Shown piece after piece: positions 10,827-52,114 of a DNA stretch of 64,000 nucleotides. The position numbers and the translations under genes are program-made. Numbering within the stretch: the stretch's first letter is position 1; each line of letters opens with the position of its first letter. The notes under the pieces were generated by a model, which worked only from the letters and a program-made list of their open reading frames with translations, did no database searches and had not been told where the DNA came from. The stretch lies in the NCBI GenBank assembly GCA_002840765.1, contig PHCE01000010.1:124001-188000 (forward strand). Direction: 5' to 3'. Source of the stretch: Betaproteobacteria bacterium HGW-Betaproteobacteria-7 (GTDB taxonomy: Bacteria; Pseudomonadota; Gammaproteobacteria; Burkholderiales; Rhodocyclaceae).

Positions 10827-11033
10827 ATGATTACTTTCCAAATTGACGACATGACATGTGGCCACTGCGCCAGCATCATCAACAAAGCTTTGAGAGCTAT
10901 TGACGACCAAGCCAAGGTCAGAGTCGACCTCGAGCGCCGCTTGGTCTCGGTTGTTTCAACTCAAGCGACCATCGAAGACATCCGCGATGCAATCTTGGAG
11001 GCGGGATATAAGCCGACACCCGTCGAGGCATAG
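10827..11033 (+). CDS. copZ: CopZ-like copper chaperone (HMA domain)
   Basis: A 68-residue single heavy-metal-associated domain with the ferredoxin-like fold pattern. The metal loop MTCGHC is at about residues 7-12. CGHC instead of CxAC suggests a histidine near the Cu(I) thiolates. It would carry cytoplasmic Cu(I) to CopA. Start at ATG 10827, which follows CAGGAG; the upstream frame extension covers the promoter and was rejected. It is divergent from copA-cueR and ends at a strong terminator. Confidence 0.88.
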   Translation: MITFQIDDMTCGHCASIINKALRAIDDQAKVRVDLERRLVSVVSTQATIEDIRDAILEAGYKPTPVEA

Positions 11034-11110
11034 TCACTAACCAATCAGACTGGCACGACGCTGTTGTCGGTGGCGCCTGCCATGGGCCGCTGCTGCCGTT
11101 CATGACCGAA

Positions 11111-11140
11111 AAAAATGGCGGCCACCTGGCCGCCATTTTT
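11111..11140. terminator. Bidirectional intrinsic terminator between copZ and pcuC
   Basis: Perfect 14-base arms AAAAATGGCGGCCA (11111-11124) and TGGCCGCCATTTTT (11127-11140) form a stable GC stem flanked by A and T tracts. It can stop copZ transcripts on the plus strand and pcuC transcripts on the minus strand. Confidence 0.9.
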
Positions 11141-11157
11141 GCCTGAGCAAGCCTCGC

Positions 11158-11631
11158 TCAGTGCTTGCTGTGATCCATCGGCATCGCCATCGGCGCCGCT
11201 ACCGGGCGCACCACCTTGGCGTCGACCTGCTTGCTGCTGCCGTCCTCGAAAGTCAGGGTGATCGGCACCACGTCGCCTTCCTTCATCGGTGCCTTGAGGT
11301 CGATCATCATGACGTGCAGGCTGCCCGGCTTGAGCACGGCTTCGCCGCCGGCCTTGATCGGGATATCGGGAACCGGGCGCATTTTCATCACGCCGCCCTC
11401 GTTGAGATGGGTATGCAGTTCCGTGACCTTCGACGCCGGGTTGGCCGCCTTGACGATCTTGACATCGGCGTTTCCGCCGTTGCGGATGACCATGAAGGCG
11501 CCGGTGGCCGGGGCATTCGGCGGCGCCAGGCGGACGTAGGGTTCATGGACGGTGATCTGGTCGGCCGAACCGGCCAGGGCACCAGCGGACAGCATCAGGG
11601 CAGAAGCGAGCAGCGACAGCTTTTTCATCAT
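11158..11631 (-). CDS. pcuC: Periplasmic copper chaperone PCu(A)C
   Basis: A 157-residue exported protein with a signal peptide (about residues 1-20, ending ALA). The family Cu(I) site is present: a histidine in ELHTH (about 72-76), MKMRPV (about 83-88) and later HVMMIDL (about 105-111), giving the H(M)X10MX21HXM pattern. It ends in a Met/His-rich tail, MAMPMDHSKH. PCu(A)C proteins deliver Cu to CuA sites with Sco. The start at 11631 follows GAGAGA and is 11 nt after sco. Placed next to nosZ, it is a plausible copper donor for NosZ CuA; that is an inference. Confidence 0.92.
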   Translation of the reverse strand: MMKKLSLLASALMLSAGALAGSADQITVHEPYVRLAPPNAPATGAFMVIRNGGNADVKIVKAANPASKVTELHTHLNEGGVMKMRPVPDIPIKAGGEAVLKPGSLHVMMIDLKAPMKEGDVVPITLTFEDGSSKQVDAKVVRPVAAPMAMPMDHSKH

Positions 11632-11642
11632 GGTTCTCTCTT

Positions 11643-12245
11643 TCATGGCTGGTTCAAAACTTTGCGGATCTCGGCCACCACCTGCTCCGCTGGCGCCCCG
11701 TGCGGCAGCTTGCCGAGCAGGCGGCCGTCACGGGCGATGACATAGGTTTCCGAGCTGTGGTCGACGACGTAGCCGTCACCGGCCGTATCCACCTTTTGCT
11801 CGGCATAGAAAACGCCATAGCGGCGGCTGACGTCGGCCACCTCTGCCGCCGTCCCGGTGATGCCGATGATGGCCGGATGGAAGAATTCGGCGTACTCCTT
11901 GAGCCGTGCCGGCGTATCGCGTTTCGGATCGACCGAAATGAAGATCACCACCACCTGCGCCAGTTCCTCGGCGCTCAGTTGATTGAGGCCGCTGGCGGTG
12001 GCGGCCAGCGAGGTCGGGCAGATATCGGGGCAGTAGGTGTAGCCGAAATAGACCAGCACCGCCTTGCCGCGGTAGTCGGCGAGGGCCACCGGGCCGCTCG
12101 CCGAAGTCAGGGTGAAATCGCCGCCGGCCGGCAGGATGGCGGCTGGTAACGGGCGCTCAGGCAGTTCGGGATTCCAGAACAATCCCAGCCCGGTGACCAG
12201 GGCGACGAGCAAGACGACGACGGCGAGCAGCAGGCGTTCGGACAT
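11643..12245 (-). CDS. sco: SCO1/SenC copper-delivery protein
   Basis: A 200-residue protein with an N-terminal membrane anchor (about 4-24) and a thioredoxin-like domain facing the periplasm. The copper-binding CxxxC is in TYCPDICPTS (about 71-80), and the distal histidine is in VVDHSSETYV (about 158-167). It inserts copper into, or reduces, the CuA site of oxidases and related enzymes. The start at 12245 sits one base after the upstream gene's TGA. Middle gene of the unknown-sco-pcuC operon. Confidence 0.93.
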   Translation of the reverse strand: MSERLLLAVVVLLVALVTGLGLFWNPELPERPLPAAILPAGGDFTLTSASGPVALADYRGKAVLVYFGYTYCPDICPTSLAATASGLNQLSAEELAQVVVIFISVDPKRDTPARLKEYAEFFHPAIIGITGTAAEVADVSRRYGVFYAEQKVDTAGDGYVVDHSSETYVIARDGRLLGKLPHGAPAEQVVAEIRKVLNQP

Positions 12246-12246
12246 T

Positions 12247-12720
12247 TCAGGAATGGCTCCCGGAAGCAAAGCGGAAGGGGATGGCGATGCGCTGGATGCC
12301 GGCTTCGATCAGCACCGTCGCCTGCCAGTCCATCTGGCCGGTGATGCAAACCGGCAAAGTCACTTCCGCGGCATGCAGGCCATTGCCGCGATGTTCGAAG
12401 AGCGGGCGGTTGTAGCCCATGTTCATGTCGACGCCAGCGAAATCGACTTCGACCCGTGACGGGGCAAAGCCCTGGGTCGTCACCCGCACTTCGAAGGGCT
12501 TGACCAGCGGAATCGGCAAGGTGCCCATCAGCAGTTCGACGCTACCGCCGGCGGGCAATGCGACGCGGCACGGACCGCGCTGCAGATTGCACATCGGGTC
12601 CGGCTGGATCACTACATCGGCCTTCGGCAACAGCATGGGCGACAGCTTGTAGCCGACGACAACGACCAGGGCGATCAGCAGGACACCGATCGCGTCAATC
12701 AGGATTTTCTTGTTCAACAA
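12247..12720 (-). CDS. Membrane-anchored protein of unknown function in the sco-pcuC operon
   Basis: A 157-residue protein with one N-terminal membrane helix (about 8-26) and a periplasmic domain. The domain contains a pair of cysteines (CNLQRGPC, about 44-51), a VDMNMGYNRPLF segment (about 97-108), a histidine-containing GNGLHAAEVTLP segment (about 112-123) and a further cysteine in PVCITGQMDW (about 123-132). The Met, His and Cys pattern suggests metal or redox work, possibly with Sco. It somewhat resembles FixH-like proteins, but I do not recognise the family firmly. First gene of the operon. Confidence 0.75.
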   Translation of the reverse strand: MLNKKILIDAIGVLLIALVVVVGYKLSPMLLPKADVVIQPDPMCNLQRGPCRVALPAGGSVELLMGTLPIPLVKPFEVRVTTQGFAPSRVEVDFAGVDMNMGYNRPLFEHRGNGLHAAEVTLPVCITGQMDWQATVLIEAGIQRIAIPFRFASGSHS

Positions 12721-12907
12721 GGGCTTTCGGACGGCTCGGCAACGGAAACGACATTCTCGTCGAGGAATGCTGTTTGGAATTAGCAGACATCAATTTTTTC
12801 ACAGTCCGGGCCGAATACAGTGTGCGACAAATTGCCGCAGGGGCTGGAAAGCCTGCGGCGATGGGGGGGTAGAACGTATGAGTTCTTGTTTTTTCGGGAG
12901 ATATCAA

Positions 12908-15205
12908 ATGAGTAGATTTGCAGTCAAATCCACCGTGTTGCTCGTCGCAGCCGGCATCGGATTCGGCGCCGCGACCACCGCCTGGTCAGCCGAGTCCCTG
13001 CAGGACGTGCTGAAACGACGCGGCCTCAGCCAGCAGGATGTACTGGCCGCCGCCAAGACCTATGTACCGACCGGCAAGCGCGATGAATTCGTGGTTTTCA
13101 GTTCCGGCGGCCAGTCCGGCCAAGTCATCGTCTATGGCATTCCGTCGATGCGTATCTTGAAGTACATCGGCGTGTTCACGCCGGAACCGTGGCAGGGCTA
13201 CGGTTACGACGAGAACTCCAGGGCGGTGCTCAAGCAAGGCATGATCGACGGCAAGGAAATCACCTGGGGTGACACGCACCACCCGGCCATTTCCGAAACC
13301 AATGGCCAGTATGACGGGCAGTTCCTGTTCATCAACGACAAGGCCAATCCGCGCCTGGCGGTGATCGACCTGCGCGACTTCGAAACCAAGCAGATCGTCG
13401 TCAACCCGATCTACAAGTCCGAGCACGGCGGAGCCTTCGTCACCACCAACAGCGAGTACGTGATTGAGGCAGCGCAGTACCCCGCTCCGCTCGAGAACAA
13501 GAAGTTCTATCCGCTCGAGGAGATGAACGAGAAATACCGCGGCGGCGTCACCTACTGGAAGTTCGACCGCAAGGAAGGCCGCATCAACGCCAAGGAATCC
13601 TTCTCCGTCGAACTGCCGCCGTACTTCCAGGATCTGTCCGACGCCGGCAAGGGCCCGTCGGAAGGCTGGTCGTTCACCAACTCGTTCTGCTCCGAGCGTT
13701 ACGTCGGCGGCATCGAGAAGGGTCGCCCACCATATGAAGCCGGCTGTTCCGCCAAGGACACCGACTACCTGCACATGATCAACTGGAAGAAGGCCGCCGA
13801 ACTGGTCGCCGCCGGCAAGGCCAAGACCATCAACGGTCACAAGGTGCTGCCGATCGACGTCGCCGTCAAGGAAGGTATCCTCTTCCTGGTGCCGGAACCG
13901 AAGTCGCCGCACGGCGTGGACGTGACCCCGGATGGCAAGTTCATCATCGTCTCCGGCAAGCTCGACACCCACACCTCGGTATACAGCTTCGAGAAGATGC
14001 AGGCGGCAATCAAGGCCGGCAAGTTCGAATCGAAGGATCCGTACGGCATCCCGGTGATCGGCCTGAAGGACGCGCTGGAAAAGCAGGTGCAACTCGGCCT
14101 CGGCCCCCTGCACACCCAGTACGACTCCAAGCCCTGTATCGCCTACACCTCGCTTTATGTGGATTCGCAGGTTGCCAAGTGGAACTACTGTGAAGGCAAG
14201 GTGGTGGACAAGATCTCCGTCCATTACAACATCGGCCACCTGATGACCATGGAAGGTGACTCGACCAGTCCGAAGGGCCGCTATCTGGTCGCCCTGAACA
14301 AGCTGGCGATCGACCGCTTCGTGCCGGTCGGCCCGCTGCACCCGCAGAACCACCAGCTGATCGACATTTCGAACGACAAGATGCAATTGTTGTACGACAT
14401 GCCGCTGCCGCTGGGCGAGCCGCACTATGCCGTGGCCATCGACGCCACCAAGCTGAAGCCGGGCGTCCGCTACAAGGTCGGTACCGATTCGCGCACCGAC
14501 AAGCCGCATCCGGGCATGGTCCGCGCCGGCGAGGAAACGACGACCAAGAAGGGCAACAAGATCGAGGTCAAGGGCACGCTGATCCGTTCGCACATCACCC
14601 CGGAAACCATCGAGGCGGAAGTGGGCGACGAAATCACCATCCACCTGACCAACCTCGAACGGGCCCAGGACGAGACCCACGGCTTCACCGTCTCGACCTA
14701 CAACGTGCATGCCTCCGTCGAACCGGGCAAGACCGTCACCGTCAAGTTCAAGGCTGACAAGGAAGGCGTCTATCCGTACTACTGCACGGAATTCTGCTCC
14801 GCCCTGCACCTGGAAATGATGGGTTACCTGCTGGTCAAGCCGAAGGGCTGGAAGCCGACCAAGACGGCTGCCACCGCCAAGGCCGCCTACACCGAAGCTG
14901 ACTACAAGGCGACGGTGAAGAAGGTTGCCGACACCCAGGCCGTCATCGACTCCGTCGTCGGTTACATCACCAGCGTCAACTACAAGGACTTCCCGGATGT
15001 CGTCGCCATGGTCGAGGATGCAACCGACCAGCTCGGCAAGATCAAGGACGCCAAGGCCAAGGCTGACGAAGCAGCGGCCAAGAAGGACTGGGATCAGGCT
15101 AACCTGTGGTCTGAGCAGATCTGGCAATACCAGGTCAAGGCGGCCGACCTCGGCCTGCGTGCCAAGACCTACCTGGAGCAGAACGGCGCCAAGAAGGTGA
15201 AATAA
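12908..15205 (+). CDS. nosZ: Nitrous-oxide reductase, Sec-dependent (clade II) type
   Basis: Reduces N2O to N2 in the periplasm. The 765-residue precursor has a Sec-type signal peptide (about 1-28, ending TAWSA) without a twin-arginine motif, which marks clade II. The seven-bladed propeller carries the CuZ ligand histidines, for example in DTHHP, HGGAF and GPLHTQY. The C-terminal cupredoxin domain has the CuA motif CTEFCSALHLEMMG (about 625-638). A helical, Lys/Ala-rich tail of about 115 residues follows and contains no CxxCH. The start at 12908 follows CGGGAG. A divergent gap of about 190 bp separates it from the copper operon. Confidence 0.97.
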   Translation: MSRFAVKSTVLLVAAGIGFGAATTAWSAESLQDVLKRRGLSQQDVLAAAKTYVPTGKRDEFVVFSSGGQSGQVIVYGIPSMRILKYIGVFTPEPWQGYGYDENSRAVLKQGMIDGKEITWGDTHHPAISETNGQYDGQFLFINDKANPRLAVIDLRDFETKQIVVNPIYKSEHGGAFVTTNSEYVIEAAQYPAPLENKKFYPLEEMNEKYRGGVTYWKFDRKEGRINAKESFSVELPPYFQDLSDAGKGPSEGWSFTNSFCSERYVGGIEKGRPPYEAGCSAKDTDYLHMINWKKAAELVAAGKAKTINGHKVLPIDVAVKEGILFLVPEPKSPHGVDVTPDGKFIIVSGKLDTHTSVYSFEKMQAAIKAGKFESKDPYGIPVIGLKDALEKQVQLGLGPLHTQYDSKPCIAYTSLYVDSQVAKWNYCEGKVVDKISVHYNIGHLMTMEGDSTSPKGRYLVALNKLAIDRFVPVGPLHPQNHQLIDISNDKMQLLYDMPLPLGEPHYAVAIDATKLKPGVRYKVGTDSRTDKPHPGMVRAGEETTTKKGNKIEVKGTLIRSHITPETIEAEVGDEITIHLTNLERAQDETHGFTVSTYNVHASVEPGKTVTVKFKADKEGVYPYYCTEFCSALHLEMMGYLLVKPKGWKPTKTAATAKAAYTEADYKATVKKVADTQAVIDSVVGYITSVNYKDFPDVVAMVEDATDQLGKIKDAKAKADEAAAKKDWDQANLWSEQIWQYQVKAADLGLRAKTYLEQNGAKKVK

Positions 15206-42187: not shown

Positions 42188-42496
42188 CTATTCCCCACGG
42201 CGGTGGGGATCGTTTTCTCGTACGCGCCTGCGGTTATCTTCAACGTAGCGTTGCGCTCGGTTCTGGTCTTCCTCGTAGCGGCGGCGATTCGCCTCTTCGA
42301 CTTGGCTATTGTTGAAGTTGATCTGGGCACAGTCGGCCGCGGTGCCGGAACAGGAATAGCGACCAAGTCCGACGTAGGTGACCTTCGGTTCGGCCGAAGC
42401 CGCCACGCTTACCAAACCCAGTAGGACGACAAGCAGGAAAGCCTTTGTCGTCGAACACGCTCCGATCCTCTCCGGAAAAACGCCTGCGCGGATCAC
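42188..42496 (-). CDS. Small secreted protein, Arg-rich tail
   Basis: A 102-residue protein whose hydrophobic segment (AFLLVVLLGLVSVAASA, about 18-34) fits a signal peptide. The mature part has two cysteines (YSCSGTAADC, about 45-54) and a long charged helix rich in R, E, N and D. GTG start at 42496 overlaps the DUF2130 stop (GTGA), so it is coupled to that gene. Function unknown; it is the last gene of the minus-strand defence-like run. Confidence 0.6.
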   Translation of the reverse strand: MIRAGVFPERIGACSTTKAFLLVVLLGLVSVAASAEPKVTYVGLGRYSCSGTAADCAQINFNNSQVEEANRRRYEEDQNRAQRYVEDNRRRVRENDPHRRGE

Positions 42497-43791
42497 AGGT
42501 CGCTCCCGTCGGCGATGGCTTCCAACTCCAGAACATCGTCCAATTGCGTCAGCTGGTCCTGGGCGATGGCTTGCAGCTCGCCGACAACGCTTGTCATGTT
42601 TCCCGTCAGGCGGTCGACCTGCGACTGACGTTTGGCCCAAATGCGTTGCATCGCCCGCCTTTCCGCATCAAGATCGGCACGCATGGTCTCGTAGCTTTCG
42701 AGCATCGAACGGATGCGCTGTGCGAACTGAGGACTGGCCAAGTAGTTGTACAGCTGCTCCATTTTCTCGTTACGGCCCGTATTGACCTGCTTCAGACGCT
42801 GCGACTCCAGGAGAATGACCCGCAGCGTCTCCCCGACCGGCCGCATTACTTGAGGACTGACGACCCACACGTCGCCCATCCGGCAAAAAGCTCCCGAACT
42901 CCCTTTGGGCATTGCCGTGGTAACGAGAACCGCGATGTCGGCATTCGCTTCCTGCTGGTCGTCCTTCAGCTTCTGGAGCCATTTTTCCGACCAGTTTTCC
43001 GCCCGCTTCGCCTCCCAGATGATCTTTCCACATATCTGGCCGGTCACCGTACGTACTGTCTGGATGATGTCTGCCCCGCGCTGGCCTTTTTTGACCTCAT
43101 CGATCTGGTCGTGGAAGAAAGCCGATTGCAGCATGTGCTCCAGCTCAAGCTCCAATACTTCGCCCTGGAGCTGTTGGGATCCCTGGTCGAGTTTGCGCCG
43201 CAGGTCTTCGTTCGCCTTCTGCGCATCGTCGATCTTCTTCTTGTACTCGGCCTCGATCAGCGCGAAGCGCTCGGCTTCGCGGCTGCCAATCTGCGTGGCG
43301 AGACGCGTCCGCTCCGCGTCGAGCTTGCGCTCGAACTCGACCTGGAAATTGACCTGCTTCTCCTCGAGCGCCTGCTTCTGGCGGCGGAGCGCCAATTCCT
43401 GCTCGCGGAAGGTGTCGAGCTGCTTGTTCTTCGCGGCGAGTTCCTCGGTCAGGGCCAGCTTTTCTTGGGCGAACGACTCGACCGCCTTGGCCTTCGCGCC
43501 GGCTTCGGCCTTCACGACCAGGGCGCGGGCATCCAGCTCGGCCTTGCGAACGTCGGCCAGGTCTTCCTTCAGCTTGTTGATCTGTTCCATGAACAGCTTC
43601 GTGGCCTTCCGCTCGGCTTCCCTGGTCAGGCTTTCTTCGAGTTCCTTCTTCTTGCTCGCCAGGGCGTCCGAGAACTCCTGCTCGTAACGCTCGATCGTAT
43701 GGCGCGCAATGCCTTGGTCGAGCGAAAACTGGTGGTTGCAATTCGGGCAGACGGCGCTTTCGTCAGACGAGACGATTATCTTTTTTCCCAT
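42493..43791 (-). CDS. DUF2130-family nuclease-like protein
   Basis: A 432-residue protein. The N-terminus has a zinc-ribbon-like CPNCNHQF (about 15-22). A long coiled coil follows (about 35-230). The C-terminal DUF2130 domain contains GADIIQTVR (about 257-265) and IIWEAKRAENWSEKW (about 277-291). The D...ExK arrangement resembles a PD-(D/E)XK nuclease core, which is my inference. DUF2130 proteins occur near restriction and phage genes. Start at ATG 43791 after AAAGGAG. It is 45 bp after the HNH gene. Confidence 0.85.
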   Translation of the reverse strand: MGKKIIVSSDESAVCPNCNHQFSLDQGIARHTIERYEQEFSDALASKKKELEESLTREAERKATKLFMEQINKLKEDLADVRKAELDARALVVKAEAGAKAKAVESFAQEKLALTEELAAKNKQLDTFREQELALRRQKQALEEKQVNFQVEFERKLDAERTRLATQIGSREAERFALIEAEYKKKIDDAQKANEDLRRKLDQGSQQLQGEVLELELEHMLQSAFFHDQIDEVKKGQRGADIIQTVRTVTGQICGKIIWEAKRAENWSEKWLQKLKDDQQEANADIAVLVTTAMPKGSSGAFCRMGDVWVVSPQVMRPVGETLRVILLESQRLKQVNTGRNEKMEQLYNYLASPQFAQRIRSMLESYETMRADLDAERRAMQRIWAKRQSQVDRLTGNMTSVVGELQAIAQDQLTQLDDVLELEAIADGSDL

Positions 43792-43836
43792 ATACGGCAG
43801 CTCCTTTGCTCAATCCGTTGAATGTCTTGGCAAGCG

Positions 43837-44760
43837 TTATCGCTTGAAAACTACCGCACGGTGATATGCCAGATATTGGGAACGCGGCAAATTTCTGAAT
43901 CGCTCAGGAAGATACTTTTCTTCCTGAAGCCCAAGGTGTTTTTTCGCGGACTCGCTAAGCGCGGGGGAAGAAATTACTCGCCACTCCTCATCGAATGTCA
44001 CCAGGCCGGAGTCGAAAGCGGCATCCCAAAGTGATGAGAGCAGGAGACCGTTGTCCTGGCACCCCCTGGCACCCGGGTTCTTCTCGCAGTGCGCCCATGG
44101 CTGGATATGCGACGCGATCAGCAGTTCCTTGCCCTCGATGCCGGACATCCAGCAAACATCTCCAACGATTTCCAGGAGCGAAGAACGGAAAGCACCTTGG
44201 CCAAAGCGAACCTTGACGACTGCCTCGCGTTCGCTCGTGCTGAGGCTCGCCGTGTCGCTTTCCAGATCTTTCTGGTTGTTTTCGGTTACCGTCGGATCGC
44301 TAGCTGGCTGTGGCTTAACTTCTTGGACATCGGGTTCAATGTCATCGGATTTACCTTTAGCGGGTATTTCATTGATAGAGAAATACCAATCTAAAACTTG
44401 CTGAAATCCGTCCTGAGTGGATACAGAAATCCGCATCGAGGCGTTGTATTCTGGATTGATCGACGGCAACCTGGCCGCTGATCCAGCCATACTGTCTCCG
44501 AGCTTATACCATTCGGTAACTGTGACACCCTGGAAACCGAATTCTGGATACCTATCACCAGATGCGGAGGTTTGATTTAAATATGCTGTGACACCAGCGT
44601 CGGTGGCTTTCCTAACAATGGCAATATGCCTTCCGGAGCATCCAAAGCGATATGCTTTTCCCGAATGATCCACTCCTTTATTAATTCCGATTTCAGCAAA
44701 ACAAGGAGTCATGCCTTTGATTTTTTCGACAATATTTTTTGCAATTTCCGGTGTAATCAT
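43837..44760 (-). CDS. HNH endonuclease with unknown N-terminal domain
   Basis: A 307-residue protein. Residues 1-130 form an unrecognised domain, followed by an acidic linker (about 135-180). The C-terminal HNH_2-type nuclease runs from KVRFGQGAFRSSLLE (about 183-197) through CWMSG, LIASHIQPWA (about 214-223) and DNGLLLSSLWDAAFD (about 236-250). The His, Asn and Asp residues of the metal site are in place. Codon use is clearly more AT-rich than its neighbours, a sign of transfer. The second ATG (44760) is better spaced from GGAGG than the first (44763). Confidence 0.85.
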   Translation of the reverse strand: MITPEIAKNIVEKIKGMTPCFAEIGINKGVDHSGKAYRFGCSGRHIAIVRKATDAGVTAYLNQTSASGDRYPEFGFQGVTVTEWYKLGDSMAGSAARLPSINPEYNASMRISVSTQDGFQQVLDWYFSINEIPAKGKSDDIEPDVQEVKPQPASDPTVTENNQKDLESDTASLSTSEREAVVKVRFGQGAFRSSLLEIVGDVCWMSGIEGKELLIASHIQPWAHCEKNPGARGCQDNGLLLSSLWDAAFDSGLVTFDEEWRVISSPALSESAKKHLGLQEEKYLPERFRNLPRSQYLAYHRAVVFKR

Positions 44761-44866
44761 CATTTCCTCCCCCGATCTATAACCAATTCACTTGCCGTAA
44801 CCTAAGCAAGTGTTTTCAATACCGCGATTGTGCAATCACTTGTGGATCGCCGAGTGAGCCACTTAT

Positions 44867-45853
44867 TTATTCATACTGCGACAAGGCCCGGCGAAGCCGA
44901 GACTGCACTTCCTTCCGGAGTTCCGGGGGCTCGAGCACCTCCACCTCTGGGCCAAATTTCAATATATCGAGCAGCAATTCGCGCTGGTCGCTGAAAGGCA
45001 CCTCGAGCACCAGGGAACCGTCGTCCAGATGCGATGCCTTCTGTTCCGGGTGCCAAACCTCGGCCTCGACCCACCGCGCCTGGAGTGCGGAGAAGCGCAA
45101 TTTGGCCCATTTCCGCTCCCCACCAGAATAGATTCCGAAATCCTTCCCGACCATGGTGTCAATCACCGCCTTGTCCGCCTCGAACGCCGGCTCCTTGAGT
45201 ATTTTTGCGTCCTCGATGCTATCCAGCGCGAAGAGCCTCGTGCCCTCCGCGCGATGGCACCAGGCGACGAGGTACCAGTTTTCCTTGTAATGGATGAGGC
45301 GCTGCGGCGAGACGACCCGGGTACTGCGCTCGTTCCGGCTCTTGGTGAAGTACAGGATCTCCAGTCGATTCCGGCGTACCGTCGCCTGGGCCACGTTCTC
45401 GAAGTGGGCCGCGTCCCGCCGCCGGGCCGCCGAGGCCAGGATCTGGACCCGCGAGCGGATATCCTCCGGCGTGTCGTCCGCCGCGCTCAGCGCCAGCGTG
45501 ATCCGCGTGATGAGTGGCTGCAGGTGCTCCGTCAGCAGGCCGGGCGCGATGTGGCTGGCCAGCGTGTCGATCATCAAAAGCGCGTAGATCTCGCTGGACG
45601 TGAACCAGGCCCGCGGCAATCCCAGCTTCCCGGATGACCAGCCCTTGTCTTCCAGGACATAGCCGCGTTCGCGTCTCGCCTCGCCGGGCAGCCAGCGGAT
45701 CGGTGCCTGGAACTGGTCCCGCAGGACCTCGAGGTCGCGTTTAAAGGTCGCGTAGGAAACGCCCAGTTCGTTCAGCAGGACTTCGCGGGGCACGGGATGT
45801 TTCCGCGTTTCCAGGATGGCGACGATGTCGCGCAAGCGTGCCGCTTGAGCCAT
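44867..45853 (-). CDS. WYL-domain transcription regulator
   Basis: A 328-residue regulator. It has an N-terminal winged helix (about 5-60, with LLNELGVSYATFKRDLEVLRD), a WYL domain (about 155-225, with RLIHYKENWYLVAWCHRAEGTR) and a C-terminal WCX-type segment (about 235-325). WYL regulators often control phage-defence operons and sense nucleic acid or nucleotide ligands. It starts 1 nt after the helicase stop, so it belongs to the same operon. Likely operators are the palindromes at 49276 and 49320. Confidence 0.9.
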   Translation of the reverse strand: MAQAARLRDIVAILETRKHPVPREVLLNELGVSYATFKRDLEVLRDQFQAPIRWLPGEARRERGYVLEDKGWSSGKLGLPRAWFTSSEIYALLMIDTLASHIAPGLLTEHLQPLITRITLALSAADDTPEDIRSRVQILASAARRRDAAHFENVAQATVRRNRLEILYFTKSRNERSTRVVSPQRLIHYKENWYLVAWCHRAEGTRLFALDSIEDAKILKEPAFEADKAVIDTMVGKDFGIYSGGERKWAKLRFSALQARWVEAEVWHPEQKASHLDDGSLVLEVPFSDQRELLLDILKFGPEVEVLEPPELRKEVQSRLRRALSQYE

Positions 45854-45854
45854 G

Positions 45855-48800
45855 TCAGTTCTCCCCTCTCAGGTATGCGAAAGTATTCACGAGCGCCATC
45901 TCGCCGGGCGATTTGCAGCGCAGGTTGAGCAGTTTCGGACTGAAAAGCACGATGGACAGGCATTTCGCCCGCGAAACCGCGACGTTGATCCGGTTCTTGC
46001 TGAACAGGAAATCCAGATTTCTGGGCAGATATTCCGCGCTCGAGGTCGCCATCGAGACGATGACCACTTCGGCCTCCTGCCCTTGGAACTTGTCCACGGT
46101 GCCGACTCTGGCGCCCTTGGGCAGGACGCGTCTCAGCAAGTTGACCTGCATGTTGTAGGGCGCCACGACCAGGATGTTGTCCAGAGAGAAAGCGTGTTCT
46201 CTCCCCTCACCGTCCCGGTAGCGCTGGGCGAGGAGGCTCTCGACGATCTCCCGTACCGCAGAGGCTTCCTCTTCGCTCCGCTGCGAGCACGCGTCGTGCG
46301 AAATGGGGAAATAGCGGATCCCGGTCGGACGCAAGGCTGGGTGGGCCGAACCATCCAGGACGAGTCTCCGCTCGAGCGTCGAATCGGCCGAGCGGAGACG
46401 CGAGTCGTAGATGGCATCGGAAATGAACCGGCACACGTCTGGATGCATGCGATAGGTCACCCCGAGGAATACTCCCTTCTCCGGGGCGATCGTCGGCTCG
46501 CCGTCCAGGAGGTACTCCAAAGCGGATTCCCCGCTCCTGCCAGGATGGCTGCCCTGGATTGGCTGCCCGAGCTGCATCTGGTCACCGAGCAGGATCAGGT
46601 TCTTCGCACACATGCCCATCGCGATGGTGTTGGCCAGGGAAACCTGTCCGGCCTCGTCAATAAACAGGTAATCGAACGATTCCCTGAAACCGGGCTTGGC
46701 GAGCGTCCAGGCAGTGCCTCCGACAAGCTGCGGTACCGGACGCGCCTCAAGGATCGCCTTGTCGGAAGCGATATTCACGATGAACAGGCTCTCGATCGCC
46801 TGTTCCGGTTTGGATATTTTCTTGATGCCGAAGTAGGAAGACCCAGACTCTTCCATCCGTTTGTCGACCGCCTCGAGGAGGTTGTTGATGGCCTTGTGGC
46901 TATTCGATGAGACGGCCACACGCTTCCCGGCCTTCAACAGCGAAGCGATCAGGTGCGATCCGGTATAGGTCTTGCCCGTTCCCGGTGGCCCCTGGATGAA
47001 CAGGTAGGACGAATCGAGACGCTCGACCGCGGCAATGGCGGCGTCGAGCGGCGTTGCATCCGTGCCGACGATGGGCTGCCCTGGCTCAAGCCCGCAGATG
47101 TCGGGCGTCCGCCGTTGCAGGTAGTCTTGAACGGCCTTGTAACCGCTTCCTCCTCGGAGGAGGGACTCGGCAAAGGCGAACACGGCGCCCTGCATCGCGG
47201 AGGAATCGACCGGCGCCCCGATCGAAACCGACATCGTCGCGGGTGGCTCGAGTTCCCCTTTTCCCAAGCTGATCTCGAGTTCGACAGCATTCCTGTCCTC
47301 GTCGATCTTCCAAACCAGGGCTTCCCTGAGGTTGTCGAGACGGACGGCACGGTCGCCGGAACGCACCTTGAAGTCCTGCTCGGGATAGCGGTACCGATAA
47401 ATTTCGTACCGCTCACCCTCACGTACATACTCGGGATCGTGAAGACCGGCGATGACCTCCGGCTCCTCGATCAGTTCCTCCAGTTCCGCCTCGCGGCGGT
47501 CGAACAGCGCCCACCATTGCGGCTTGGCGGCCCGCCGGTAGAAATCGAGGAGGGAGTCGACCAGTCCAGCCAGTTCCGGATCGAGATCCGGGTTTTCCGG
47601 ACACGTGACCAGGCGCTTGTGGAAGTCCTCCAGGCATTTCTCGTGTTCCAGCGTTTTGTCCGACTTACCCCGTGCCGGCTGCTTTGATTCCGTCACGGTC
47701 GCCGTCGCGAACCACGGCAGATCAACGGGGCGCAGCGACAACAGCCAATCACGCAATTGCCACGTCGAACGGCAGTCCTCCTCGTTGTACTGGCGGATAG
47801 ACTCGAGCAATTCGGGATCCTTGGATTCCCGCCACTGCTCGTAGACGACGATGCTGTCGGTCGCCTTCTTCACGTCGGAGGCGCGCTTCTCGGAATAGAA
47901 CGCCTCGACTGCCTTGATCGAGTAACTGTCTTTTGAGATGCGGATACCTTCCCTGACGACCTTGTACAGATCCACCAACCGGCTCTCACGCAGCAACTGG
48001 TCCACGGCTGACTCGCGAACGCCGTGCGACGTCATCAGGCGCTTGATCGCCGTGTTTTCGTAATGGGCGTAGTGATAGACGTGCATACCGGGATATGCCG
48101 CCCGACGAGCCATCACGAAGTCGATGAACTCGGTGAACGCCCGCCGCTCTTCCTCACGGGTATGGGCCCAAAACGCCTTGAACACGGGCTTCCCGGCATC
48201 GACGTAATACAGGCCGAACAGGTATTCGAGCCCCCCTTCCTCCATAGGGTCGCCTTCCATGTCGAAGAACAGGTCTCCCTCGTCCGGCCGGGGAAGGCGG
48301 GCGAATCCCCGAAGCACTCCTGCTTCCACGGGGAGCAATTCGACAACCTGTCGGCCCGACGCCCGTTCAATCACCTGCAAACGCGCTTGTTCCCGTAACT
48401 TCGCCAAGGTCTCGGGCGCTACCTTGGGCACGGACTGTGATACCGGGAGCGAACCGAGCGCGGCCACGGTTCGGACGTCGGCCGCTTCCAGCCGGGCGAT
48501 CTGCTGGCGGGTGATTCCCGCGACGGCGGACAAGTGGTCATCATCGATCCGCTTGGCAGCGCAGCGTTCCCGCCAGGGGCACAGACCGCAGTGGTCGCAC
48601 GGCGACGGATAAGGCACTTCGGCTTCGTCGGGATAGGCCGCGAGGTAGTCGAGCAGCCGTCCCAACAGCGAGCGGTAGTAGTGGACATAGTCGCTGACCT
48701 TGAAGCTTTCCCGTTTCCCGTTCCCCAGTTCCACGTGCATGTGGTGGGGCAGTTCGCCGGTAATGTCGGAGAGCAGGTCGGAATAGAAGCAGAGCTGGAG

Positions 48801-49229
48801 GAGGAACTTCGCCTTGGTCGAGCGGGCCAGCTTGGTATCTGCGACCTCGTACAGCCTTTGTCCCCGGCTTCCATGGCCGGATCGCACCAGGAAGTCCGCG
48901 TGCCCCATCAGGTTGCCCCGCTTGAGCGTCGCCTGGTAGACCACTTCCGCACCGTCGAGGATGGCCGCCCGCGTCGCTTCGAGCTTTTTCTCCAGCGGCC
49001 AGTCGGTAGCGATTTCAACGCATGAACCGGCCCCTTCCTTCAGGAGGGCAAAGTACCTCTCCTCGTGCTCGAATCCTTTTCGCTGAACGAGCAGGTTTTG
49101 CTCGTCATCCTTGGCCTTCTCCATTGGATGATCCAAGTGCAGACGATCAAGCCAGGTTCGATGGGCGCATTCCGCAAAAAAGGAAAGGTCGCTTGCCGAT
49201 AGGACAATCTCTCCAGCTGCCTCTTGCAT
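45855..49229 (-). CDS. RecB-like nuclease / DEDD exonuclease / SF1 helicase fusion (TM0106 type)
   Basis: An 1124-residue three-part protein. Residues 8-215 are a RecB/Cas4-like PD-(D/E)XK nuclease (GHADFL and YEVADTKLA, about 109-135) with a four-cysteine cluster CDHCGLCPWRERC (about 211-223) that may hold Fe-S. Residues about 315-500 form an RNase H-like exonuclease (FFDMEGD; YNEEDCRSTW, about 481-490). Residues about 680-1110 are a Dna2/UPF1-like SF1 helicase (GPPGTGKT, about 747-754; DEAGQ; LGDQMQLGQP; DKFQGQEAEV; NVAVSRAK). Start at 49229 chosen where homology begins; the frame further upstream covers promoter sequence. Confidence 0.88.
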   Translation of the reverse strand: MQEAAGEIVLSASDLSFFAECAHRTWLDRLHLDHPMEKAKDDEQNLLVQRKGFEHEERYFALLKEGAGSCVEIATDWPLEKKLEATRAAILDGAEVVYQATLKRGNLMGHADFLVRSGHGSRGQRLYEVADTKLARSTKAKFLLQLCFYSDLLSDITGELPHHMHVELGNGKRESFKVSDYVHYYRSLLGRLLDYLAAYPDEAEVPYPSPCDHCGLCPWRERCAAKRIDDDHLSAVAGITRQQIARLEAADVRTVAALGSLPVSQSVPKVAPETLAKLREQARLQVIERASGRQVVELLPVEAGVLRGFARLPRPDEGDLFFDMEGDPMEEGGLEYLFGLYYVDAGKPVFKAFWAHTREEERRAFTEFIDFVMARRAAYPGMHVYHYAHYENTAIKRLMTSHGVRESAVDQLLRESRLVDLYKVVREGIRISKDSYSIKAVEAFYSEKRASDVKKATDSIVVYEQWRESKDPELLESIRQYNEEDCRSTWQLRDWLLSLRPVDLPWFATATVTESKQPARGKSDKTLEHEKCLEDFHKRLVTCPENPDLDPELAGLVDSLLDFYRRAAKPQWWALFDRREAELEELIEEPEVIAGLHDPEYVREGERYEIYRYRYPEQDFKVRSGDRAVRLDNLREALVWKIDEDRNAVELEISLGKGELEPPATMSVSIGAPVDSSAMQGAVFAFAESLLRGGSGYKAVQDYLQRRTPDICGLEPGQPIVGTDATPLDAAIAAVERLDSSYLFIQGPPGTGKTYTGSHLIASLLKAGKRVAVSSNSHKAINNLLEAVDKRMEESGSSYFGIKKISKPEQAIESLFIVNIASDKAILEARPVPQLVGGTAWTLAKPGFRESFDYLFIDEAGQVSLANTIAMGMCAKNLILLGDQMQLGQPIQGSHPGRSGESALEYLLDGEPTIAPEKGVFLGVTYRMHPDVCRFISDAIYDSRLRSADSTLERRLVLDGSAHPALRPTGIRYFPISHDACSQRSEEEASAVREIVESLLAQRYRDGEGREHAFSLDNILVVAPYNMQVNLLRRVLPKGARVGTVDKFQGQEAEVVIVSMATSSAEYLPRNLDFLFSKNRINVAVSRAKCLSIVLFSPKLLNLRCKSPGEMALVNTFAYLRGEN

Positions 49230-49275
49230 CCGGGTTCCCCTGTGCCGAAAAGATGGCGACGTTATCACGTTATGT

Positions 49276-49292
49276 AGCTCATAAAATGAGCC
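49276..49292. promoter_or_regulatory. Palindromic operator candidate 1
   Basis: GCTCAT-AAA-ATGAGC is a perfect 6-base inverted repeat with a 3-base centre. It lies 48 bp upstream of the helicase start and shares its design with site 2, 45 bp away. Likely bound by the WYL regulator of the same operon. Confidence 0.55.
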
Positions 49293-49319
49293 ACTGAGTA
49301 TTTTGGGTTTCGGAGCAAA

Positions 49320-49338
49320 TGGCTCACCTCGTGAGCCA
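49320..49338. promoter_or_regulatory. Palindromic operator candidate 2
   Basis: TGGCTCAC-CTC-GTGAGCCA is a perfect 8-base inverted repeat with a 3-base centre, 51 bp upstream of the DUF4258-like gene. The half-site GTGAGCCACTT also occurs at 44854-44864, next to the WYL gene stop. Its place between divergent genes suggests shared control. Confidence 0.6.
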
Positions 49339-49388
49339 CTTCCGGCATCAAACTGCTCCCATCGCCACATCACATCGGGAGAGTTGGT

Positions 49389-49664
49389 ATGCAGCTCAGC
49401 AATCACGCGGTCGCCCAGATGCAGCAAAGGGCCATTTTCGACTCGACGATCGACTATCTGATCGAATGGGGGCGCAAGGCGTACGACCACAAAGGCGCCA
49501 TCATCCGCTACTTCGACAAAACGTCGCGCGCCCAATTGCTCAGGCATGTCGGCGAACAGCGCGCCAAACAGCTCGAACACCAGTTGGACGCCTATGTCGT
49601 CGTCTCGAGGACCGGATATGTCATTACGGTCGGCCACCGCTACAAGCGTATCAACCGACAATAG
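49389..49664 (+). CDS. DUF4258-like small protein
   Basis: A 91-residue protein starting MQLSNHAVAQMQQRAI, then a helix (about 19-31) and a final strand pair ending GYVITVGHRYKRINR. The H-x-x-x-R-x-x-x-R opening and GHRYKRI ending match DUF4258 and related small proteins, which resemble RelE/BrnT-type toxins in fold; toxin activity is not shown here. The start follows GGGAG at 49377-49381. It is divergent from the helicase and 10 nt before the next gene. Confidence 0.7.
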   Translation: MQLSNHAVAQMQQRAIFDSTIDYLIEWGRKAYDHKGAIIRYFDKTSRAQLLRHVGEQRAKQLEHQLDAYVVVSRTGYVITVGHRYKRINRQ

Positions 49665-49674
49665 GAGATAACGT

Positions 49675-50190
49675 ATGGCCATCCTGCTCGAGGGCTACAG
49701 CCTCGTATTCCGGATCGATGCGATCGAACAGAAATACCCCGGCGGCACGCACGGGCTCGTTTATGACTGGAACAACGGATCCTGGTGTTCCGACGGCAGT
49801 CTCGGGCGCATTTCCTACTACGCGAAGGACGATGCCTTCTGCTGTTTGCTCGCCTTGGCAGACCGAGGGCTGAACATTGCATCGACGCATGCCGAAGACG
49901 TGGCGCTCATCCTGCACGGCGGACATCCGTGGGCGCCGTGTCTATGGGCGGAAGTCGAAACGACGCCATCCGGTTTCGTGTATTGCGCCCACATCTCCGA
50001 CAAACCGGAGAGGATATTTTTCCCGGGATACTTCAGGCGCGATTGGTCGTTGGCCCATTACGCTATCCAGGACGAGGCCGTACTGGCGCGGGACGTCGCT
50101 CCTGTCATCCGATCAGCGAGGGGTGCCACGTACCGTGATGCCCGGCTCGACAAAACGTTCAGAGGACCAGGTTTTCTGTCTAGGCACTAA
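49675..50190 (+). CDS. Unknown protein paired with the DUF4258-like gene
   Basis: A 171-residue, mainly beta-stranded acidic protein with several Trp and aromatic residues (YDWNNGSWCSDGSLGRISYY, about 29-48) and a helix with two cysteines (FCCLLALADRG, about 53-63). There is no signal peptide or known motif. The ATG at 49675 follows AGGAG. Its 10-nt spacing to the preceding gene suggests one operon. Family not recognised; it could be an antitoxin, immunity or sensing partner. Confidence 0.6.
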   Translation: MAILLEGYSLVFRIDAIEQKYPGGTHGLVYDWNNGSWCSDGSLGRISYYAKDDAFCCLLALADRGLNIASTHAEDVALILHGGHPWAPCLWAEVETTPSGFVYCAHISDKPERIFFPGYFRRDWSLAHYAIQDEAVLARDVAPVIRSARGATYRDARLDKTFRGPGFLSRH

Positions 50191-50524: not shown

Positions 50525-52114
50525 TCAAAAGCCGAAAGCTAACCGATCATAACGGCATACTAGCTTCCGATAGGCCGTTCTGTAGGGTTCCTTTTCGGCC
50601 ACCTGCGAGTTTTCCCGGAGGAAGCTTGCCAACGTGCCAAGGTCAACTTCGGGAGCTGGTTGGTGGGCCAGCATCAGCACCGCTTCTATCGGGCTTGCCG
50701 CTTTCTCGATGATTTCGTTGGTCGTGAGACCGACAAATTCCTTTTTATAGCGAGTGGCGTAGCTGGGCAATGTGTAATCCGCGCCTGATAACTTCCTGAC
50801 GACCTTCTTCGCTCCTTCATATTTGGACTCGTCTAGCTGCTGCTGCGACGTGATGCCAGCAGATCGGAGGTATCTGAATACAGGGATAAATGTTCTATTG
50901 GACCTGCCGTAGCCTGGGAAGGCGGTTTCCAGCAAATCGGTCGCCTGGAACTTTGATTTCTCGAGAAGACAGTCGGTAAAAACCTCTTCTGCGCTAATCC
51001 CTTCGTACCCCTTCTTGGCTAGCGCATCCTGAACATGCTGGGTAACCTTTTCTCCCAGCGCCGCCTGGAATCGAGCCACTCCGACACCCACGACGAACTC
51101 TACCTCGTCGGCTGAATCGATGTCCTCGTAGTCGACAACTGCGATCTTCTTGTCCGTATCGGCAGATGCATGTACAAGTTCATACATTTGCTCCTTGAAG
51201 AAGCGCAGGACGCGCGCCGGTATCTTTCGCTTCGTTCCCCCAAGCGCCGCGTAAACCTGTGAGAAGTCAGAGATCTTCGCAACCGTCATCGTTACACTGA
51301 ATTCAGATGACTGGATCGTTGTCTTCTCAATTGCCGGTTCCTGACCCTCCGCCGCTCTTTGCACGAAGATCAGGTTCTCCTGAAATGCGGCTATCTTGTC
51401 CTGCGTCAAGCACTTTGCGATGGACATGATAATCGCCTTGATGTGAGGATCCGTGATTGAATAACCGATGAATACGATCGGATGCTCTACAAAGATGGTT
51501 ACCAGCTTCGCCGCAAGATACGGGTTCTTATCGGCAAATTCCAGGTAGTCCTCATCTGTAAGAACCAGGGAGCGCGGATCGTCGGCCGAGCCATGTATTT
51601 TGTATATTTCACCGATTGCCTGCGGGTTTGCGAATAGCAACTCCTCCTGGCCCACAAATACCCGATAGTCTGGAAAAAGCTCCTCGAGCAAGAAGTCCCA
51701 GTTCGTGGTGATGATCCCGTCGACTGATATCTCCGACAACGCGGCGATCTCATGTCCGTACTCGGACTTGCGGGCGTCTTCCAGGGAGAAATTGCGAATG
51801 TATCGACATATCTCCACTTTCAGTGCGTCAGACCGCCCTCTCACGACGCCGGCAAATTCGCTCCGACTTACTTCGGTCTCTGGCGCCGACCACCACCATT
51901 CGTTGAAGTCATCTGCCATAAATGATGCAGCAAGCGGCATGGCGCCATTTGCCTTCGCACTGTAATAGCCGAACTCCCTGATGGGACCACAAAAGCGTTG
52001 TAGCAGGCCCGCCCAATCTTCAAGTTTGAGATACCGGCGGGAGAATCCAGAACCTATGAATAGGAAAGGCGCCGCGGGATGCTTGTCCAGCATTTCTTTG
52101 AGTATTTCGTTCAC
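50525..52114 (-). CDS. SIR2-like domain protein, candidate anti-phage NADase
   Basis: A 529-residue protein. The N-terminal SIR2-like Rossmann domain (about 1-300) has FIGSGFSRR (about 19-27), IITTNWDF (about 134-141), the catalytic-type histidine in YKIHGS (about 171-176) and FIGYSITDPH (about 215-224). The C-terminal 230 residues match nothing I know. SIR2-like proteins of this size act in several abortive-infection systems by destroying NAD+. GTG start at 52114 after GGGAGA. Codon use is less GC-rich than the core genome. It stands alone. Confidence 0.82.
   Translation of the reverse strand: MNEILKEMLDKHPAAPFLFIGSGFSRRYLKLEDWAGLLQRFCGPIREFGYYSAKANGAMPLAASFMADDFNEWWWSAPETEVSRSEFAGVVRGRSDALKVEICRYIRNFSLEDARKSEYGHEIAALSEISVDGIITTNWDFLLEELFPDYRVFVGQEELLFANPQAIGEIYKIHGSADDPRSLVLTDEDYLEFADKNPYLAAKLVTIFVEHPIVFIGYSITDPHIKAIIMSIAKCLTQDKIAAFQENLIFVQRAAEGQEPAIEKTTIQSSEFSVTMTVAKISDFSQVYAALGGTKRKIPARVLRFFKEQMYELVHASADTDKKIAVVDYEDIDSADEVEFVVGVGVARFQAALGEKVTQHVQDALAKKGYEGISAEEVFTDCLLEKSKFQATDLLETAFPGYGRSNRTFIPVFRYLRSAGITSQQQLDESKYEGAKKVVRKLSGADYTLPSYATRYKKEFVGLTTNEIIEKAASPIEAVLMLAHQPAPEVDLGTLASFLRENSQVAEKEPYRTAYRKLVCRYDRLAFGF

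Follow-up and report, generated by a model that had tools for sequence, protein, structure and literature searches.

A WYL-associated helicase-nuclease locus with exchangeable reader and nuclease domains as a candidate modular restriction system

Introduction

Do the helicase-nuclease, WYL regulator, HNH nuclease and DUF2130 genes that lie side by side in the genome of Betaproteobacteria bacterium HGW-Betaproteobacteria-7 form one defence system, and if so, of what kind? The locus occupies positions 42,188 to 50,190 of a 64,000-nucleotide stretch of contig PHCE01000010.1 (positions 124,001 to 188,000; “the window”, whose numbering is used throughout; Table 1). A first-pass annotation had proposed it as an undescribed defence locus of five minus-strand genes and two small divergent genes. 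We consider it somewhat probable that the locus is a modular, type IV-like restriction system under WYL control, in which readers and cutters can be exchanged and the ends of cut DNA are processed in the manner of Dna2/AddAB. Protein families, catalytic motifs, domain shuffling, a reader common to McrB and the operator association were computed directly, and we infer a role in defence from the families and their context.

Exchange of readers and cutters in gene 3

Between the window and locus L001 (uncultured Dechloromonas; identical to one contig of G009, a genome of the same genus as the source), nucleotide identity is 0.81 for the helicase, 0.86 for the WYL gene and 0.85 for DUF2130. Gene 3, which in the window encodes an N-terminal sensor and a C-terminal HNH nuclease, has in L001 an N-half 57% identical in protein to that of the window and a C-half of the NOV_C type (PF13020). 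In L002, where the WYL gene is 0.85 identical in nucleotides to the window's, the C-half of gene 3 (NOV_C) shares 85% protein identity with that of L001, and its N-half is a different one, without detectable similarity. Reader and cutter combinations are N-A+HNH (window), N-A+NOV_C (L001) and N-B+NOV_C (L002); N-B+HNH occurs in P0168, P0173 and P0175, proteins without known genomic context. Sensor and nuclease exchange independently while their neighbours stay 80-86% identical, and gene 3 remains between WYL and DUF2130 even as its halves are replaced. The idea of a fixed five-gene set had to be abandoned, as gene 3 is a swappable cassette that is replaced elsewhere by McrBC or other modules. 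It is also AT-rich relative to its neighbours, as the first-pass annotation had observed (49.7% GC versus 63.4% for WYL, 59.5% for DUF2130 and 62.6% for the window), with 44.0% GC in its first 135 codons.

In a wider sample, 181 proteins were collected (120+50 from searches and 11 from the loci) and the 171 with a usable N-region were kept, the N-region of the other 10 being short or missing. Blastp resolved 29 N-terminal families, a number that may reflect over-splitting (an earlier linkage into 15 families chained readers through linkers and was replaced), and 5 of the 29 occur with more than one C-terminal type. In the metagenomic protein P0171, an N-B-type reader is fused directly to a DUF2130 tail. 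A deletion in a locus of this kind would produce such a fusion, and the protein is consistent with the gene order being the same in another metagenome.

A reader domain shared with McrB

An iterative profile started from the N-regions of two HNH proteins converged on 63 of 1362 entries and on none of 1362 reversed decoys. The 63 include gene 3 of the window and of L001 (duplicates L081 and L082), L009 and 13 of 23 McrB-cluster entries (12 distinct, L083 duplicating L008). A profile started from the N-A family stayed confined to that family (44 entries) and reached no McrB; hhalign of the same family against the 13 McrB N-termini gave 95.2% (E 2.6e-8), with ten unrelated control profiles reaching at most 1%. 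As judged from these profiles, the window reader is homologous to the N-termini of McrB GTPases that adjoin the same helicase elsewhere. Pfam scanning of eight McrB proteins (L008 and seven more) returned AAA and other P-loop families and nothing else, and no Pfam family was found up to E 5 for gene 3 residues 1-135 or for the N-regions of nine gene-3-type proteins. The modelled N-domain has YgaC/YjbR as its nearest fold, a result that excludes nothing; the known modification-reading families EVE, SRA and YTH are not in its listed fold matches, which proves nothing either. The viral fold library gave no match at or below E 0.001.

The nuclease half is homologous to the modification-dependent endonuclease VcaM4I (1.3e-19), and its H219, N238 and D247 align with VcaM4I H224, N241 and D250 (PMC7897488), giving the catalytic H-N-D triad expected of a modification-dependent HNH endonuclease. 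Query A1 retrieved 63 viral loci, 61 of which match from residue 135 on only, that is, in the HNH half.

We regard as evenly balanced the broader proposition that this is an undescribed modular immune system, in which a Cas4-exonuclease-helicase and a WYL switch would serve interchangeable reader and cutter cassettes, a YjbR/YgaC-fold reader would be traded among HNH, NOV_C and McrB effectors, and half-gene recombination would alter which foreign DNA is seen.

A second small reader-like family also occurs beside the helicase, stand-alone in two loci (L011 13472-13828; L016 13559-13921) and fused to HNH (PF01844) in a third (L027 3831-4697); in small-scale comparisons this second type (L011, L016, L027 and P0091) gave a similar picture. 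Separately, two to four HNH_2 matches lie within a few kilobases of each other in G138:C87 (42202-46986), G040:C1 (370209-371288) and G210:C50 (28077-29152), possible sensor-nuclease arrays.

Predicted operators of the WYL regulator

The WYL protein comprises a winged helix-turn-helix (wHTH), a WYL domain and a C-terminal WCX domain, the layout of BrxR-type regulators, with HTH_11 scoring 22.2 bits against a cut-off of 25. A palindrome, TGGCTCAT-N3-ATGAGCCA, lies twice in the divergent intergenic region. Its core, GCTCA-N5-TGAGC, occurs exactly twice in the 64 kb, both times between the divergent units and 45 bp apart, where about 0.06 occurrences are expected at equal base frequencies. A degenerate third site precedes gene 3 (Table 1); better sites occupy that position in L001 (8410), L002 (9104) and L003 (6331), and sites a few bases past the WYL stop and before the next gene, some imperfect, occur in L001, L002, L003, L004, L007 and L064. 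Seven related loci hold 12 further exact sites, 11 intergenic and one within the start of the called DUF4258-like open reading frame (ORF) of L003, which may have been called too long.

A further 29 WYL loci were chosen by protein similarity alone, one of them without a callable WYL ORF. The exact palindrome was found in 21 of the remaining 28, many of which come from related genomes, nearly always no more than about 100 bp from the gene, with one site 406 bp away. Of 64 helicases, 10 also have an exact site in the 250 bp upstream, where the frequency in the remaining 1.07 Mb of the loci predicts 0.13. Searches that allowed up to three mismatches gave no palindrome excess, so only good palindromes count. 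The association of the palindrome with WYL genes suggests a predicted regulon. At L008, a helicase-McrBC run is preceded by paired WYL-type palindromes 39 bp apart (9920 and 9959), although no WYL gene was found in its vicinity, which suggests control in trans.

The helicase-nuclease

The TM0106/COG2251-type protein joins a Cas4/RecB-like PD-(D/E)XK nuclease with conserved cysteines, a DEDD-type exonuclease and, in its C-terminal third, a superfamily 1 (SF1) UPF1/DNA2-like helicase; TIGR03491 (2.9e-94) spans residues 162-647 (residue numbers follow the long ORF, P0005), and in sequence comparisons with the PDB it matches SMUBP-2, DNA2 and UPF1 best. Across 70 full-length copies (including L008 and L083, identical to each other), D263, K284, Q296, Y300, D474, E476, D571, D636, G901, G903, K904, D1009 and E1010 are 100% conserved, D282 98%, C172, C365, C368 and C374 87% each and C362 74%. 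Walker A comprises G901, G903 and K904, with a variable position 902 (A in 51%), and Walker B D1009 and E1010.

The 1275-aa ORF from ATG 49682 proved too long. The DUF4258-like gene overlaps its residues 1-151 on the opposite strand, so that these were dismissed as a domain, and called ORFs start at window residue 152 in 52 of 69 homologues and at residue 1 in 13, the caller picking the longest ORF. AGGGGA precedes ATG 49229, and ATG 49682 has no evident ribosome site. Because of the homologue starts, the antisense overlap and the AGGGGA, the predicted start was corrected to 49229. No match to P0005 at E 1e-20 was found among 50,697 phage records, and viral contigs sharing its six peptide patterns contained no P0005 relative.

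Genomic company of the helicase

The helicase, WYL and a gene-3-type nuclease occur together in L001, L002, L003, L004, L019 and L064, with a different order in L004, L019 and L064. DUF2130 completes the set in L001, L004 and L064, is cut down to its first part in L002 and is missing from L003 and L019. The co-occurrence on which the first-pass proposal depended is therefore seen in other genomes, and the window neighbourhood is found again in other genera.

Company within 4 kb on either strand was counted in L001-L080, the best 80 of 105 loci by similarity to the window protein, of which 62 had a full helicase flanked on one side by 3 kb or more of sequence; some helicases are >90% identical, and the sample is neither even nor independent. 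A McrBC, HNH/NOV_C or McrB2/DUF2357 gene accompanies 37 of the 62 helicases: McrB/McrC in 23, HNH/NOV_C in 10 (L043 counting through a weak NOV_C match at 3.5 kb) and the McrB2/DUF2357 type in 5, L003 having two. WYL was found in 12 and RmuC or DUF2130 in 6. The cluster names McrB, McrC, RmuC and DUF2357 were first assigned by eye (DUF2357 by eye alone); McrC is backed by PF10117 (G202/L124), RmuC by the annotation of L136 and McrB by AAA_5 only.

In an even sample of 399 genomes of the order, TIGR03491 occurs in 17; McrC (PF10117) is present anywhere in only 28, to be set against the 37 of 62 helicases with a restriction gene within 4 kb. Six of the 17 are helicase-fused by frame length (the window, G049, G202, G310, G339 and G272): McrC lies about 3 kb from the helicase in G049 and G202 (L008 and L077), G310 and G339 have none, and G272 was not assigned. 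No McrC or HNH_2 was found close to the 11 shorter TIGR03491 proteins of this sample. Among plasmids, 74 of 72,556 records hold a helicase relative at E 1e-20, and in 7 of 12 regions examined WYL is directly beside the helicase (L130 and L135-L140; L140 is unannotated and its WYL was called by profile). WYL is the companion met most often on plasmids, as McrBC is among the chromosomal loci, whereas the effector is variable. On two plasmids (L133 3594-6019; L136 10396-12206) the TM0106 helicase adjoins ubiquitin-like genes (multiubiquitin, ThiF, DUF6527).

These counts also weigh against a fixed system, as 25 of the 62 helicase loci lack any profiled module and the other plasmid partners vary. 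They are what might be expected of two or more independent defence genes: a solo TM0106 helicase-nuclease with its WYL regulator, next to a modification-dependent HNH enzyme that acts on its own, the two having no more in common than a promoter region and an island. Unrelated plasmid partners fit this view, as does the finding that 91 of the 97 genomes with HNH_2 genes (of the 399) have no TM0106 match. However, one reader family runs through the HNH, NOV_C and McrB proteins that adjoin this helicase, gene 3 keeps its place as its halves change, P0171 has the form that a deletion would yield, and operators are held in common. We judge independent genes unlikely, though they are the strongest rival to a modular restriction system.

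Locus layout and neighbouring genes

All genes of the first-pass annotation were recovered on the strands it gave (Table 1), as were the 1-nt helicase-WYL gap, the 45-nt HNH-DUF2130 gap and the GTGA overlap of DUF2130 with P0001; the WYL-HNH gap exists but measures 103 nt rather than about 106. The fifth minus-strand gene (P0001, 42188-42496) is not core, having matched L001 alone in a search of 81 loci.

Table 1. Genes, domains and predicted operators of the locus (window coordinates)
Feature	Position	Strand	Details
TM0106/COG2251-type helicase-nuclease	45855..49229	-	TIGR03491, RNase_H_2, AAA_11/AAA_12; corrected start
WYL-WCX transcription regulator	44867..45853	-	BrxR/CapW-like architecture; WYL 2.1e-21, WCX 8.7e-20, HTH_11 below cut-off
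Gene 3, sensor-nuclease cassette	43837..44763	-	HNH_2 7.4e-8
Gene 3 sensor	44374-44763		residues 1-130, then linker helix
Gene 3 HNH nuclease			about residues 180-308; triad H219, N238, D247
DUF2130 coiled-coil protein	42493..43791	-	PF09903 3.9e-62
Small coding gene	42188..42496	-	signal-peptide-like start by eye; reading frame kept in L001; neighbour, not system part
DUF4258-like small protein	49389..49664	+	divergent, optional; PF14076 E 1.2e-4, below Pfam cut-off
P0006 (171 aa)	49675..50190	+	optional; no Pfam family; starts 10 nt past DUF4258-like gene
Predicted WYL operator 1	49275..49293		TAGCTCATAAAATGAGCCA
Predicted WYL operator 2	49320..49338		TGGCTCACCTCGTGAGCCA; 45 bp from operator 1
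Degenerate operator-like site 3	44843..44861		5 nt past WYL gene, upstream of gene 3; score 14.8 of 29, 2 mismatches

The DUF2130 protein is 72-76% identical in amino acids to those of L004 and L064. Its conserved part contains a putative PD-(D/E)XK-like GAD...EAK motif, recognised by eye. Kinship with RmuC (RmuC/Shield) was considered and left unsupported by a single small hhalign comparison with the RmuC profile (1.1%). In L002 an IS66 transposase gene (11011-13226) splits gene 3 from DUF2130, which is recognisable only in its first part, and in L009 a short stretch resembling the start of DUF2130 (8487-8603), perhaps a remnant, follows straight after the HNH gene.

The locus is bounded on the left by a DUF2254 membrane protein and PPK2, and on the right by a SIR2 gene (50525-52114, minus strand; nearly full-length PADLOC match to PDC-S25, 8.4e-168) and then an ammonium transporter. 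The SIR2 gene has no exact WYL palindrome before it and is therefore probably a defence gene in its own right.

The two small divergent genes are present as first described, but the pair is optional across loci and not a fixed part of the system. DUF4258-like relatives lie near the helicase in L002, L003, L007, L010, L012 and L064, accompanied by P0006 in L002, L012 and L064. None of the 22 other P0006 homologues has a Pfam domain, no PADLOC family matched, and the fold search gave no usable reading (predicted local distance difference test [pLDDT] score of the model, 52). The pair could be read as part of an abortive infection or toxin-antitoxin system, with gene 3 as a toxic nuclease and the DUF4258-like gene and P0006 as a toxin-antitoxin pair triggered by infection: it is a compact two-gene unit with its own ribosome-like sites and a 10-nt gap, it faces the same operators, and the HNH domain of VcaM4I acts as a non-specific toxic nuclease once its linker and EVE domain are gone (PMC7897488). 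Yet the pair was not seen in L001 or L004, and P0006 offers neither a Pfam or PADLOC family nor a readable model, leaving this explanation improbable. A DNA-damage regulon, with a WYL activator of the PafBC/DriD kind switching on a helicase-nuclease for break repair, is more doubtful still: PafBC/PafC are the best PDB sequence relatives of the WYL protein and one plasmid copy has dinB and genes for an SOS peptidase and an error-prone polymerase in its vicinity, but occurrence is patchy (17 of 399 genomes), many helicase partners are restriction nucleases and the SIR2 defence candidate adjoins the locus.

Proposed mechanism and significance

For a modular type IV-like restriction system, we infer cutting of phage DNA, dependence on modification, autoinhibition, an order of events and repression rather than activation, as follows. 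The WYL protein would hold the divergent promoters (helicase-WYL and DUF4258-P0006) and the promoter before gene 3 at the palindromic operators and let go of them on infection. As in VcaM4I, the N-terminal reader and linker helix of gene 3 would hold its HNH domain in check until the reader binds some feature of the incoming DNA, a base modification or a modified sequence context being the most likely, whereupon the HNH would cut. The TM0106 protein may then act as a Dna2/AddAB-like end processor, its SF1 helicase unwinding from the cut and its Cas4-like and DEDD nucleases degrading the strands, with DUF2130 assisting, perhaps as a coiled-coil nuclease clamp. Recognition would be diversified by exchange of the reader and, separately, of the nuclease.

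If this is true, type IV restriction gains a reader-domain family without a Pfam entry, and HNH-type and McrBC-type enzymes become linked via that reader and a common helicase-nuclease. The predicted regulon has operators open to direct test, and the half-gene exchange of readers and cutters would illustrate how bacteria readjust what they recognise in phage DNA. Should the readers bind modified bases, they are possible reagents for the detection of such bases.

Comparison with known systems

The first-pass annotation had recognised no named system, and none emerged here: PADLOC gave single-gene matches to different systems and no complete set, and no named system in NCBIfam or PADLOC-DB 2.0.0 fits the gene set. 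Open-licence literature yielded no paper tying a TM0106-type helicase to defence, none on TIGR03491, none combining a RecB-like nuclease, McrBC and WYL, and none combining DUF3883, an HNH endonuclease, a helicase and defence; for DUF2130 and defence it yielded a paper about marine domains of unknown function. The COG2251/TM0106 architecture has been described as DUF83 plus PF13482, frequently with a tandem AAA; the window helicase belongs to the same family and has the same domains, but no operon or defence role is described in the part of that paper covered here (PMC3985635). BrxR-family WYL regulators resemble that of the window in their wHTH-WYL-C-terminal domain order, location by defence genes and inverted-repeat operators, which for the window are predicted ones; in layout, the BrxR boxes reported are 11-bp repeats with a 5-bp spacer, whereas the window palindrome has 8-bp arms and a 3-bp spacer (PMC9122601).

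McrBC is related through the McrB GTPases beside the same helicase, some of which bear a reader homologous to that of gene 3, but the window genome (G000) has no PF10117 match for McrC and no McrB-type gene is among the scanned locus proteins. CoCoNuT systems share a type IV-type module with the window locus, and a UPF1-like SF1 helicase is part of their types II and III; they differ in having a McrB-like GTPase and a McrC homologue with coiled coils. No McrB-like GTPase was found among the scanned locus proteins and no McrC in G000, and in the main text of the CoCoNuT paper the words RecB and HNH are absent and WYL appears in a reference title only (PMC11090510).

The type IV enzyme VcaM4I (EVE-HNH) shares with gene 3 a homologous C-terminal HNH, an H-N-D triad and an N-terminal reader with a linker helix; gene 3 differs in its YgaC/YjbR-nearest reader, in which EVE was undetected, and in its operon with a helicase, WYL and DUF2130 (PMC7897488). 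MmcQ/YjbR-EVE fusions likewise tie a YjbR-like fold to nucleases in defence settings, but there YjbR is fused to EVE, whereas here a similar fold, with EVE undetected, is joined to HNH, NOV_C or McrB (PMC7641849). The trading of readers at this locus may be likened to the trading of specificity subunits in type I restriction.

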